Below are positions 41,603 to 45,754 of a stretch of 64,000 bases of DNA, one piece after another; the first letter of the stretch is position 1; every line of letters begins with the position of its first letter. This DNA comes from Micrococcaceae bacterium Sec5.8 (lineage in GTDB: Bacteria > Actinomycetota > Actinomycetes > Actinomycetales > Micrococcaceae), in NCBI GenBank assembly GCA_039636775.1, contig CP143429.1, forward strand, positions 2,480,001 through 2,544,000, read 5' to 3'. The notes under the pieces are model-generated. The model was not told where the DNA came from. It saw nothing but the letters and a program-made list of their open reading frames with translations, and searched no databases. Both the position numbers and the translations under genes were made by a program.

Positions 41603-43501
41603 TCAGTCCTCCTCTTCCCATTCCGGGGTCATGTTGCGGGCCACCTGGATTTGATCGTTGCTGACTCCGGAGGGGACCATCGGCCACACCATGGAGTTGG
41701 GGCTGACCACGAAGTCGATGACCACGGGGCGGTCGTTGATCTCCAGGGCCTTCTGGATGGTGGCGTCGATGTCCTCGTCGCGTTCACAGCGGAACGAGGC
41801 GCAGCCGTAGGCGTCCGCGAGCTTGACGAAGTCCGGGATCCGGACGGTGTCATGGCCGGTGTTCAGATCGGTGTTGGAGTAGCGGCCCTCGTAGAAGAGG
41901 GTCTGCCACTGCCGCACCATGCCCAGTGAGGAGTTGTTGATGATGGCGACCTTGATCGGGATCTTGTTGATCGCGCAGGTGGCCAGTTCCTGGTTGGTCA
42001 TCTGGAAGCAGCCGTCGCCGTCGATGGCCCAGACCACGCGGTCCGGGTTGCCCACCTTGGCGCCCATGGCGGCCGGCACGGCGTAGCCCATGGTGCCGGC
42101 TCCGCCGGAGTTCAGCCAAGCGTGCGGGCGTTCGTACTTGATGAACTGCGAGGCCCACATCTGGTGCTGCCCGACGCCGGCGACGAAGACGCCCTCGGGG
42201 CCGGTGAGCGCGCCGATGCGTTCGATCACCCGCTGCGGTGCGCTGAGGCCGTCGTCGGGTTCGGTCCAGCCCAGCGGGTAGGTCTCCTTGAGGTTGTTCA
42301 GGAAGGTCCACCAGTTGGTGATGTCCGGGGTTCCGGAGGCGGCGAACAGGGTCCGCAGAGCCTCGCTCAGTTCCGGGATGATCTCCTTGACCGAGCCGAC
42401 GATCGGCACATCGGCGGTGCGGTTCTTGGAGATCTCCGCCGGGTCGATGTCCGCGTGGATGACCTTGGCGTTCGGGGCGAAGGACTTCAGGATGCCGGTG
42501 ACCCGGTCATCGAAGCGCGCACCGAGCGTGATCAGCAGGTCCGACTGCTGCAGGGCCGTCACGGCGGAGACCGTGCCGTGCATGCCCGGCATGCCGACGT
42601 GCTGCGGGTGGGAGTCCGGGAAGACGCCGCGGGCCATCAGGGTGGTGACCACGGGGGCCCCGCAGAGTTCCGCGAGCTCCAGCAGTTCCGCCGAGGCGTG
42701 CGCCTTGACGACGCCGCCGCCCACGTAGAGCACGGGCTTGTTGGCCGCGGCAATGAGCCGCGCGGCTTCGCGGACCTGCTTGTTGTGGCCGCGCAGCACC
42801 GGGTGGTAGCCGGGCAGGTCGATCTTGGGCGGCCAGGAGAAGGTCATCTGGCCCTGCTGGGCGTCCTTGGCGACGTCCACCAGCACCGGGCCGGGACGCC
42901 CGGTCGAGGCCAGGTGGAAGGCCTCGGCCATGACGTGCGGGATGTCGTTGGGGTCGGTCACCAGGAAGGAGTGCTTGGTGATCGGCATGGTGATGCCCAC
43001 GATGTCCGCTTCCTGGAAGGCATCGGTGCCGATCACCCCGCTGGAGACCTGGCCGGTGATGGCCACGATCGGCACGGAGTCCATGTGGGCATCCATGATG
43101 GCGGTGACGAGGTTGGTGGCACCGGGGCCGGAGGTGGCGATGCAGACGCCCACCCGTCCGGTGACCATGGCGTAGCCTTGCGCGGCGTGGCCGGCTCCCT
43201 GTTCGTGACGGACCAGAACGTGGTTCATTCTCGAAGCCATCAAGGGGTCGTAGGTGGGCAGGATCGCGCCACCGGGCAAACCAAAAATATCGTCCACGCC
43301 GAGTTCTTCGAGCGAGCGGACAATAGCTTGTGAACCGGTCATCACCGTCGGGGGTACGACGTTGTTCGGTCCAAGGACAGGAGAGACAGCAGCAATGTCG
43401 ACGCCGGCGTCAGCCGCGCGTTCGACGCGGTCCGAAGCCTTGGGGGCTCCAGCGGACTTAGTGGCCATCAGCGAGGGGCTGATCGGCGATCCTTTGCTCA
43501 T
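41603..43501 (-). CDS. ilvB: Acetolactate synthase large subunit
   Basis: 632 residues from ATG 43501, with AGGAAGA upstream. Thiamine-diphosphate enzyme that makes acetolactate and acetohydroxybutyrate, the first common step for Ile and Val. Seen: the [15 protein letters not shown] start of the Pyr domain, [15 protein letters not shown] with the catalytic Glu, [14 protein letters not shown], and the ThDP motif starting [14 protein letters not shown] and ending in NN. About 50 N-terminal residues before the fold are low-complexity. Expression is probably set by the attenuator and leader peptide about 60-200 bp upstream. Confidence 0.98.
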
Positions 43502-43552
43502 CGGACTCTTCCTTAGTGGATCTTCGGTGGATCATCAGTGATCTTGCGGTGC

Positions 43553-43595
43553 GGAAATAAAAGAACCCCTCAGCCGGAGGCTCTTCGAGGGGTTC
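43553..43595 (-). terminator. Attenuator hairpin upstream of ilvB
   Basis: On the minus strand GAACCCCTC and GAGGGGTTC form a perfect 9-bp stem that encloses a smaller AGCC/GGCT hairpin and is followed by TTTTATTT: a textbook intrinsic terminator. It lies 28 bp after the leader-peptide stop and about 50 bp before the ilvB start, the position of an attenuator. Confidence 0.88.
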
Positions 43596-43623
43596 GCGCG
43601 TGACGGTTCGTTACCGGTGCAGG

Positions 43624-43695
43624 CTATGGAGCCACGCGCTTGGTAAGGACGACGGAGACACCTGCAGCGGCGCCGACGGTAACGGATGCGATCAT
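43624..43695 (-). CDS. ilvL: ilvBNC leader peptide (attenuation)
   Basis: A 23-residue open frame from ATG 43695 to TAG 43624, beginning MIASVTVGAAAGVSVVLTKR and then ending Val-Ala-Pro. Six Val, one Leu and one Ile in 23 codons are a strong enrichment for the products of the operon. A terminator hairpin with a T tail lies 28 bp downstream. Codons 4-7 contain CGTTACCG (43677-43684), which pairs over 8 bp with CGGTAACG beyond the stop (43609-43616). A ribosome on the leader would open this pairing, and so choose between structures. A GAGGGA sequence is 11 bases before the start, but a leaderless mRNA is also possible (see promoter). Leader-peptide attenuation of ilvBNC is known in corynebacteria; use here is inferred. 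Confidence 0.8.
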   Translation of the reverse strand: MIASVTVGAAAGVSVVLTKRVAP

Positions 43696-43701
43696 GCAAT
43701 C

Positions 43702-43731
43702 AGTTTTCCCTCTGAGTGAGACACGTGTCAA
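43702..43731 (-). promoter_or_regulatory. Candidate ilv leader promoter (TTGACA-18-AAAACT), leaderless type
   Basis: A perfect -35 TTGACA (43731-43726 on the minus strand) is 18 bp before AAAACT (43707-43702), which lies six bases before ATG 43695. Transcription would start at or very near the A of that ATG. The -10 is weak. An alternative TATGGT box lies further up at 43756-43751 and would give a 55-base leader. Confidence 0.4.
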
Positions 43732-43772
43732 CGAGCCCACGCACTGTCTCACCATATGGACTTCACTGTCCA
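43716..43772. promoter_or_regulatory. Two inverted repeats in the ilvB promoter region
   Basis: GTGAGACA (43716-43723) and TGTCTCAC (43745-43752) are perfect 8-bp inverted arms 21 bp apart, and share the TGAGA/TCTCA half-site of the leuC-ltbR palindrome. Next to them TGGAC-ttcact-GTCCA (43757-43772) forms a second inverted repeat. Either may bind a regulator such as LtbR or the nearby LysR protein. Confidence 0.4.
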
Positions 43773-43834
43773 CCTGTTGAACTTCACATTTCCCTGTGAC
43801 CTGACAGCCTCCGGCGGCAGGCGGGAGGCTCCTT

Positions 43835-43870
43835 CCCCAAACGGACGGCGCGGACGCCGTCCGCTTGGGG
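43835..43870 (-). terminator. Terminator behind ilvD
   Basis: CCCCAA-a-CGGACGGCG and CGCCGTCCG-c-TTGGGG form a 15-pair stem with one mismatch and a 4-base loop, 50 bp after the ilvD stop. There is no T run. Confidence 0.75.
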
Positions 43871-43919
43871 CCCCTCGGAGTCTCCCTTATTAAGCCTGGT
43901 TACCCCTGCTTAGAGAGAA

Positions 43920-45641
43920 TCACCCGCAGTAGGCGCCGGTGGAGGCGCTGTGGACGAGCTTGGCGTACTTGGCGAGCACACCCTTGGTGAACTTGGCCGG
44001 GAGCGGTTCCCAGCCCACCTTGCGGGCGTCAAGCTCGGCCTCGTCCACGAGGAGGTCGAAGCTGCGCGCGGCGATGTCCACGCGGATCCGGTCGCCGTCC
44101 CTGACGAAGGCGATGGGGCCGCCGTCGGCCGCTTCCGGGGCGACGTGGCCGATGCACAGTCCTGTGGTGCCGCCGGAGAAGCGCCCATCGGTGAGCAGCA
44201 GGACGTCCTTGCCGAGGCCGGCGCCTTTGATGGCGCCGGTGATGGCGAGCATTTCGCGCATGCCCGGTCCGCCCTTGGGGCCTTCGTAGCGGATGACGAC
44301 GACGTCGCCGGCCTTGATCTGGCCGTGGTCGAGTGCGTCCAGGGCACCCTGCTCGCGCTCGAACACGCGGGCCGTGCCTTCGAAGACGTCGGCGTCGAAG
44401 CCGGCGCTCTTCACGACGGCGCCTTCCGGGGCCATGGTGCCGTGCAGGATGGTGATGCCGCCGGTCTTGTGGATGGGGTTGTCCATGGCCCGCAGGATCT
44501 TGCCGTCCAGGTCCGGCGGGTTGATCGCCGCGAGGTTCTCCGCGACGGTCTTGCCCGTGACGGTGAGGCAGTCGCCGTGGAGGAGGCCGGCGTCGAGCAG
44601 GGCGCGCATGATGACCGGCACGCCGCCGATCCTGTCGACGTCGGTCATGACATAGCGGCCGAAGGGCTTGAGGTCTCCGAGGTGCGGGATCTTGTCGCCG
44701 ATGCGGTTGAAGTCCTCGAGGTTCAGCTCGACCTCGGCTTCGCGGGCGATCGCGAGGAGGTGCAGGACGGCATTGGTGGAGCCGCCGAAGGCCATGGTCA
44801 CGGCGATGGCGTTTTCGAAGGCTTTCTTGGTCATGATGTCGCGGGCGGTGATGCCCAGACGGAGGAGGTTCACCACCGCTTCGCCGGACTTGCGGGCAAA
44901 TTCGTCGCGACGGCGGTCTGCCGAGGGCGGTGCGGCCGAGCCGGGAAGGGACATGCCCAGCGCCTCGCCGATGCAGGCCATGGTGTTGGCGGTGTACATG
45001 CCGCCGCAGGCGCCCTCGCCCGGGCAGATGGCCTTTTCGATCCGGGTGAGGTCTTCCATGCTCATCTTGCCGGCCGCGCAGGCGCCGACGGCTTCGAAGG
45101 CGTCAATCAAGGTGACTTCCTTCTCCGAGCCGTCCTCCAGCTTGACCCAGCCCGGCATGATGGAGCCGGCGTAGAGGAAGACGCTGGCAAGATCCAGGCG
45201 GGCCGCTGCCATCAGCATGCCCGGCAGGGACTTGTCGCAGCCGGCCAGCAGGACCGAGCCATCGATCCGCTCAGCCTGCATGACGGTTTCCACGGAGTCG
45301 GCAATGACTTCCCGGGAGACCAGGGAGAAGTGCATGCCCTCATGCCCCATGGAGATGCCGTCCGAGACGGAGATGGTGCCGAACTGCATCGGGAAGCCGC
45401 CGCCGGCGTGCACGCCTTCCTTGGCGCCCTGGGCCAGCCGGTTCAGGGAAAGGTTGCAGGGAGTGATTTCATTCCAGGAGCTCGCGACGCCGATCTGCGG
45501 TTTGGCGAAGTCGTCGTCGCCCATGCCCACCGCACGGAACATGCCGCGCGCGGGGGCCGCATGGATGCCGTCGGTGACCACCCGGCTGCGGGGCTTGATG
45601 TCCGGTTTGGTCGCTGTCGCTGTCTGGATGTCCTCACTCAT
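43920..45641 (-). CDS. ilvD: Dihydroxy-acid dehydratase
   Basis: 573 residues. Dehydrates dihydroxyisovalerate and dihydroxymethylvalerate in Ile/Val synthesis. The Cys ligands of the Fe-S cluster are in [26 protein letters not shown] and [15 protein letters not shown]-terminal: [23 protein letters not shown] block (DGRFSGGT). The cluster is probably the oxygen-tolerant [2Fe-2S] plant/actinobacterial type, but this cannot be settled by eye. It has its own promoter region and ends before the ilvB regulatory region, separated by a hairpin. Confidence 0.98.
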
Positions 45642-45727: not shown

Positions 45728-45754
45728 TGGACAGCTATCTCATTAGATGGACAG
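45728..45754. repeat. Two TGGACAG direct repeats before the ilvD promoter
   Basis: TGGACAG occurs at 45728-45734 and 45748-45754, 20 bp apart (two helix turns), with ATCT-catt-AGAT between. The spot just upstream of the -35 suits an activator or repressor site. The same TGGAC core is in the ilvB promoter region. Confidence 0.4.

Follow-up and report, generated by a model that had tools for sequence, protein, structure and literature searches.

Control of branched-chain amino acid biosynthesis by short leader peptides is an established theme in the Actinomycetes. In 2005, ilvB leaders followed by terminators were predicted for Corynebacterium, Mycobacterium and Streptomyces (PMC1262725), and regulation by ilvB leaders has been shown in Corynebacterium (PMC10272879, PMC11857589) and in M. 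tuberculosis (PMC13236596). In C. glutamicum, changing VVV to AAA in the leader is described as causing the loss of valine dependence, and hairpins H2 and H1 are assigned the roles of antiterminator and anti-antiterminator, respectively (both as told in PMC11857589). In M. tuberculosis, changing LVVI to AAAA is reported to abolish induction (PMC13236596). What we regard as the strongest published counter-example comes from S. coelicolor, where swapping the candidate regulatory codons of the ilvB leader is stated to have left regulation unaffected (PMC1262725). Leaderless ilvB leaders have been reported for C. glutamicum, with transcription starting 1 nt away (PMC11857589), and for S. lividans (PMC8079986), and the leader motif of Corynebacterium is known as the ilvB-II motif (PMC10272879). 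A search of the literature, restricted to open-licence papers and therefore weak evidence of absence, found no title or abstract on an ilvB attenuator of Arthrobacter or the Micrococcaceae.

The 64,000-nucleotide stretch of DNA analysed here (the window) carries, in the ilvD-ilvB gap of an Arthrobacter-type genome, a unit that lies entirely on the minus strand; the closest named IlvB to the window's protein is that of Arthrobacter sp. U41 (98%). The unit begins with a promoter (43702..43731) in which TTGACA (43731-43726) and AAAACT (43707-43702) are separated by an 18-nt spacer. The -10 box is followed, after 6 nt, by the ATG at 43695, which opens a 23-codon reading frame ending at TAG (MIASVTVGAAAGVSVVLTKRVAP, 43624..43695). 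A spacer of 28 nt leads to a hairpin with an inner stem and a U tract (43595-43555), and ilvB (41603..43501), which encodes the large subunit of acetohydroxyacid synthase and is the first gene of the regulated ilvB-ilvN-ilvC run, starts at 43501. An earlier sequence-only reading had described a 23-codon leader with six Val, one Leu and one Ile, and both composition and coordinates are exact: Val occupies codons 5, 7, 13, 15, 16 and 21, the single Leu is codon 17 and the single Ile codon 2. Thus, 8 of the 23 codons specify V, L or I, and this richness is conserved in relatives. The branched-chain run Val15-Val16-Leu17 (43645..43653) lies 5 nt upstream of the pairing arm b described below, and further candidate sensing codons are Val5 (43683-43681), Val7 (43677-43675) and Val13 (43659-43657). 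We consider it highly probable that the unit is a ribosome-mediated transcription attenuator for ilvBNC, and such a tiny Val-rich leader followed by a terminator very likely restricts the synthesis of branched-chain amino acids in this soil bacterium to times of shortage.

The intrinsic terminator between leader and ilvB, which the earlier reading had also proposed, is confirmed by sequence and by the minimum-energy fold. It occupies 43555..43595 on the minus strand and consists of the stem GAACCCCTC/GAGGGGTTC with an inner stem AGCC/GGCT (43595-43563), followed by the U tract TTTTATTT (43562-43555). It is absent from the output of a simple terminator scan, because only loops of 3-8 are allowed there. 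Taken whole, the leader does not exceed shuffled sequence in stability (z -0.60; 55 of 200 shuffles were at least as stable). A T-box or riboswitch was considered and rejected, since Rfam 15 contained no such match: at the gathering threshold only four tRNAs were found over the window, and at E<=1 the region 43450-43950 gave only two sub-threshold matches, to a truncated RNase P and a CRISPR repeat.

Conservation was assessed with a covariance model (R1) that was built from 16 aligned leaders and whose structure comprises only the leader-end helix and the terminator. At family level, 272 of 395 genomes (25 of 32 genera) matched; the order gave 147 of 396 (45 of 109 genera) and the class 65 of 394 (39 of 137 genera), the three samples overlapping. 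Each matching family or order genome, including the window's own, contains a single match, and the N-terminal part of IlvB is encoded downstream on the same strand in all 141 filtered loci outside the named records L001-L080. The sequence-only reading had staked its case on the conservation of leader frame and hairpin, and frame, layout and hairpin are indeed conserved among relatives, which argues strongly for the unit.

For closer comparison, we used 234 records, namely the window and L001-L235 minus L081 and L113, both of which represent the window; the fetched regions covered 80 of the 117 order hits without a prior locus and 20 further family hits. A candidate leader was obtained from 189 records, and comparable reading frames from 181, the window included, passed a filter that required a promoter score of at least 6 and two adjacent V, I or L codons. 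These were clustered into 99 representatives, which form an order-wide sample. Among the 53 records that did not pass, 41 belong to the 80 named records, mostly from Microbacterium and other genera, which we take to be members of the Microbacteriaceae, but also including L022 and L024 (Nesterenkonia) and L052 (Quadrisphaera). The remaining 12 are other loci that do match the model, and thus the script misses some true units. In L027, L028 and L029, ilvB follows almost directly after the apparent end of ilvD, as judged by eye, and the attenuator therefore seems to be lost or absent; other failures may be script misses. Two records carry unexpected titles, L019 (Sporosarcina beigongshangi) and L039 (a proteobacterial MAG). 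Their IlvB proteins are 82% and 71% identical to that of the window, and the L019 leader, MQPKLPVVIS, is also that of L140, a genome of the window's family; hence, these are probably wrong titles or contaminated assemblies.

A consensus promoter scan found no promoter at the leader of the window. In 90 of the 99 representatives, the best-scoring promoter in the 70 nt upstream places the end of its -10 box 6-8 nt from the start codon, a figure that is partly circular because start codons and representatives were partly picked for a promoter at this place. With only 6 nt between the -10 box and the ATG in the window, transcription probably begins at the ATG or right beside it, which would make the leader leaderless. 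Past the first residue, V, L and I make up 43% of the leaders of the representatives, and at least three of them occur in a row in 96 of the 99, a run of two having been a filter. With respect to codon usage, 102 of the 314 leader Val codons are GTA, versus one of 62 in the window's ilvB, and CTT is the commonest Leu codon in the leaders. Rare codons may be favoured in leaders because they provide greater sensitivity to tRNA charging. These features bear on the idea that the reading frame is spurious, i.e., that an ordinary terminator in the ilvD-ilvB gap happens to follow a chance frame. Short frames are indeed common by chance (13 of at least 20 amino acids overlap 43300-43800), and codon changes between near neighbours are largely non-synonymous (74 versus 20 synonymous in 26 pairs), but a chance frame explains neither the branched-chain run, the RVA tail and the fixed distance between start codon and promoter, nor the fact that the frame is kept while length varies from 12 to 33 codons among 57 unique RVA-type leaders, the window's being longer than many. 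We therefore consider a spurious frame extremely improbable.

The pairing proposed by the earlier reading, 8 bp between leader codons 4-7 and the region past the stop, is present at exactly the coordinates that were given. Arm a (CGTTACCG, 43677..43684), which extends from the last base of codon 4 to the first base of codon 7 and is the candidate 5' arm of an anti-antiterminator, pairs with a' (CGGTAACG, 43609..43616) on the minus strand. By itself, this match is marginal against chance and not convincing (p = 0.08 for shuffles of the 22-nt spacer and 0.079 for spacers of other species). Among the representatives, a:a' beats shuffles at p<=0.05 in 20 of 99, where 5 are expected, and seven reach p 0.01; against swapped spacers from other representatives, p<=0.05 was found in only 7 of 99. 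Many leaders of the genus carry the helix as TCGTTACC/GGTAACGA, and it stands out in several lineages whose sequences are unrelated, as in L017 (TGCAGAAGC/GCTTCTGCA, p 0.005) and L020 (TCGATGTTCT/AGAACATCGG, p 0.01). It has no base in common with the terminator, and so cannot by itself decide termination. The proposal that ribosome position decides terminator formation is thus not supported for a:a' alone. The earlier description of an ilvBNC attenuator stands with its leader rich in branched-chain codons, its competing pairings and its intrinsic terminator, but it had missed the probable leaderless start and the key helix, b:b'.

This second helix joins the end of the leader to the spacer. 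Arm b (GCGCGTGGC, 43631..43639, codons 19-22), the candidate 5' arm of an antiterminator, pairs with b' (GTCACGCGC, 43596..43604), both on the minus strand. Arm b' abuts the terminator with a gap of 0, i.e., GTCACGCGC and GAACCCCTC are adjacent and share no base in the window. As a:a' and b:b' cross, only one of the two can form in simple folds. The window's b:b' reaches p = 0.01 against shuffles, and 73 of the 99 representatives reach p<=0.05. Against foreign arms, p<=0.05 was found in only 13 of 99, the own helix being better than the mean foreign one in 81; foreign arms often fit because one b sequence is common to many representatives. The original choice of candidates used the energy of b and an adjacency of -3 to +4 nt; re-tests on the chosen loci dropped both conditions, but still inherit loci, start codons and terminators from that choice. 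When the reading frame was searched against everything from the stop to the first terminator bases, with no adjacency condition, the best leader:spacer helix ended within -3 to +4 nt of the terminator start in 83 of 99 representatives and exactly at it in 48; it lay 0-2 nt from the terminator in 62 and overlapped it in 23. The best helix was near the terminator G/C core in 76%, versus 19% for shuffled spacers. In Kocuria (L018, L021, L023) and Nesterenkonia (L025), the equivalent helix reaches 5-7 nt into the terminator, so that candidate antiterminator and terminator share bases in these relatives, but not in the window. In L012 (Arthrobacter sp. CAU 1506), the arm b sequence AAGCGCGTGGC is repeated between -35 and -10, about 20 nt upstream of the ATG.

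Outside an invariant GCGC core, b and b' change in concert. The GCGC-core set comprises 77 of the 99 representatives with 61 distinct arm pairs; at its positions 6-10, pairing is seen in 229 of 305 cells, compared with 154+-8 when partners are dealt at random (2000 shuffles, highest 180). With anchoring by motif only (85 of 99, 52 distinct), the figures are 189 of 260 versus 127+-7, with a highest value of 149; sequence relatedness is still present in both counts. The covariation that the sequence-only reading had suggested looking for is thus found for b:b' in the order-wide sample, but not in the 16-sequence alignment, where nothing rose above shuffles and most rows are near relatives. The helix also fixes codon choice at the RVA of the leader: in unique RVA leaders, Arg is CGC in 58 of 58 and Val is GTG in 57 of 58, whereas GTG is used for only 11 of the 242 remaining Val codons. 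The same layout was read by eye in hits outside the order, e.g., as GCGCGTTGGTG/CACCAACGCGC in L237 and L238, although two of the eight loci L236-L243 yielded no leader in the script.

The position of b fits control by a translating ribosome. With a footprint of 26 nt, the value used for M. tuberculosis (PMC13236596), at least 70% of b is free on some codon of the branched-chain run in 97 of 99 representatives, at least half of it is covered at the stop in 87, and both hold in 85, including the window. Exactly 5 nt separate the last branched-chain run from b in 54 of 99, and the fold probability of b is higher on a stall than at the stop by at least 0.5 in 75. Equilibrium folding, in contrast, kept the terminator at any ribosome position: on stalling, its probability dropped by at least 0.3 in only two of the 99 (L025 and L080) and rose in one. 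In the window it was unchanged on a stall, and no equilibrium switching is predicted; the fold probability of b:b' was 0.00 without a ribosome, on the stall that leaves b freest and at the stop. In the window, minimum-energy folds with the ribosome placed on Val7 or Val13 contain b:b', those for Val5, Val15, Val16 and Leu17 lack it, and among the constrained folds the exact a:a' helix appears only with the ribosome on Val15. Ribosome-free folds disagree: with flanks b:b' forms, whereas in the fold that begins at the ATG both b:b' and the exact a:a' are absent, and early leader and spacer are paired in a shifted register. A ribosome-dependent choice is thus supported by the crossing of the two helices and by an arm b that a stalled ribosome leaves open but a ribosome at the stop occupies, and only partly by the folds of the window. 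A ribosome on the Val15-Leu17 run leaves arm a of the window uncovered, and since Val5 and Val7 touch this arm, sensing in this strain may effectively depend on these two codons and Val13.

These features can be combined into a mechanism. RNA polymerase would start at or beside the leader ATG, as suggested by the promoter, and a ribosome would load on the 5' end and follow. When charged Val, Leu and Ile tRNAs are plentiful, the ribosome at the stop would cover b, b:b' would not form and transcription would terminate. When these tRNAs are short, the ribosome would halt on the Val codons and b would be free to pair with the emerging b'; the resulting helix, which ends exactly where the terminator stem starts, would lower termination. 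An arm that is exposed during stalling and masked when the ribosome sits at the stop has the right sign for an antiterminator, and we lean towards this role for b:b'. In the absence of a ribosome, pairing of the early leader with the spacer, in the form of a:a' or something close to it, would come before b' has been transcribed; b:b' would thereby be excluded and the terminator left active. Because a' is transcribed before b', a:a' has the right sign for an anti-antiterminator, and we regard this ribosome-free branch as evenly balanced between true and false. As a whole, the attenuator with these roles for b:b' and a:a' is probably the best explanation of the locus.

What this mechanism has to explain is how b:b' acts. 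Since a:a' and b:b' both leave the terminator bases untouched, either b:b' prevents termination without competing for bases, or the switch works in some other way. As an antiterminator, b:b' would have to operate through kinetic or steric effects. A classical antiterminator, in which upstream RNA pairs with either terminator arm, was sought over the 99 representatives and rejected: upstream partners reached p<=0.05 against shuffles in three representatives for the 5' arm and in two for the 3' arm, which is about chance. The antiterminator role of a flush b:b' is suggested mainly by the Kocuria and Nesterenkonia helix that runs into the terminator. We tentatively infer that a flush helix obstructs closing of the hairpin in or at the RNA exit channel of the polymerase, and that this geometry is common to the genus and many other Actinomycetes, a joint proposal that we hold to be possible but rather doubtful. 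The locus could also be an attenuator in which b:b' stacks end to end on the terminator, strengthening termination or protecting the RNA, while the switch resides in some other, unseen pairing. The compatibility of b:b' and terminator in equilibrium folds and the lack of shared bases in the window agree with such stacking. However, it would have the wrong sign, since in 85 of 99 representatives b is covered under plenty and free under shortage; furthermore, the chance-level search described above left no other conserved partner for the terminator arms, and the Kocuria and Nesterenkonia helices enter the terminator as an antiterminator would. We consider the stacking explanation unlikely.

A further explanation places the main control of ilvB at its promoter. 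Upstream of the -35 box lies a conserved, operator-like sequence (GTCCATATGGTGAGAC, 43746..43761, minus strand) with the consensus GTCCAnATnnTGAGAY, which may be a putative operator. TGAGAY is present in 63 of the 99 representatives, and 60 of 64 sites lie 55 to 58 nt before the start codon. A second copy with one mismatch (45737-45752, minus strand) is found 111 nt upstream of ilvD, counted from motif start to ATG. With at most one mismatch, the pattern occurs five times in the window's own genome, twice before branched-chain amino acid genes (ilvB and ilvD); the other three hits, which may be due to chance, are near transketolase-like, amino-acid permease-like and proline-dehydrogenase-like genes, named by eye from their translations. 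In Streptomyces, the IclR-type regulator NdgR is reported to bind sites containing GTCCAC, with the ilvB and ilvD promoters among its targets, but the second half of its motif differs from the box seen here (PMC4340878). A protein bound at this fixed place could be the main regulator, the terminator merely setting a constant level and the leader being a relic or of minor importance, in line with the ineffective codon changes in S. coelicolor (PMC1262725). A relic, however, would not keep its branched-chain runs, the b:b' covariation and the ribosome spacing, and the leader mutations of M. tuberculosis and C. glutamicum cited above likewise speak for a working leader. We therefore judge predominant promoter control to be quite improbable, although promoter control and attenuation can coexist.

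With the attenuator described here, ilvBNC attenuation reaches the window's family and a large part of the order to which it belongs, and it includes a helix that is backed by covariation and has no Rfam 15 match in this window. As ilvB attenuators were already predicted or shown in Corynebacterium, Mycobacterium and Streptomyces, the element belongs to a known kind of switch, and what may be new about it is that a flush geometry without overlap could be the common rule. This is relevant to a recently published view, which takes a trinucleotide common to antiterminator and terminator as a hallmark of the ilvBNC switch. If abutment does prevent closing of the hairpin, then a single conserved geometry would include the base-sharing forms, i.e., those of Kocuria and the published one of Corynebacterium, as special cases.

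The closest parallel is ilvBNC of C. glutamicum, where a leader with branched-chain codons likewise precedes the operon; it starts about 1 nt from the transcription start, much as is probable for the window (PMC11857589, PMC10272879). The three-hairpin model proposed there has anti-antiterminator, antiterminator and terminator in front of ilvBNC in the order of the candidate elements of the window (PMC11857589). Different from the window, where the two elements abut with no shared base, antiterminator and terminator of C. glutamicum overlap at GCC, which is called a hallmark of the operon, and the leader sequence (MTIIRLVVVTARRLP) is not that of the window (PMC11857589). With ilvB1NC of M. tuberculosis, the window shares a branched-chain run in a short reading frame, the logic of a 26-nt occlusion and an intrinsic terminator; there, regulatory codons were found to matter and transcript ends and ribosome occupancy were measured, whereas the present case is built from sequence (PMC13236596). 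The ilvL leaders of Streptomyces (S. lividans MRTRILVLGKRVG) are leaderless, as the leader of the window probably is, and are likewise short and followed by a terminator before ilvB (PMC8079986, PMC1262725). They are shorter than the leader of the window, but their KRV tail recurs in its TKRVA (PMC8079986).
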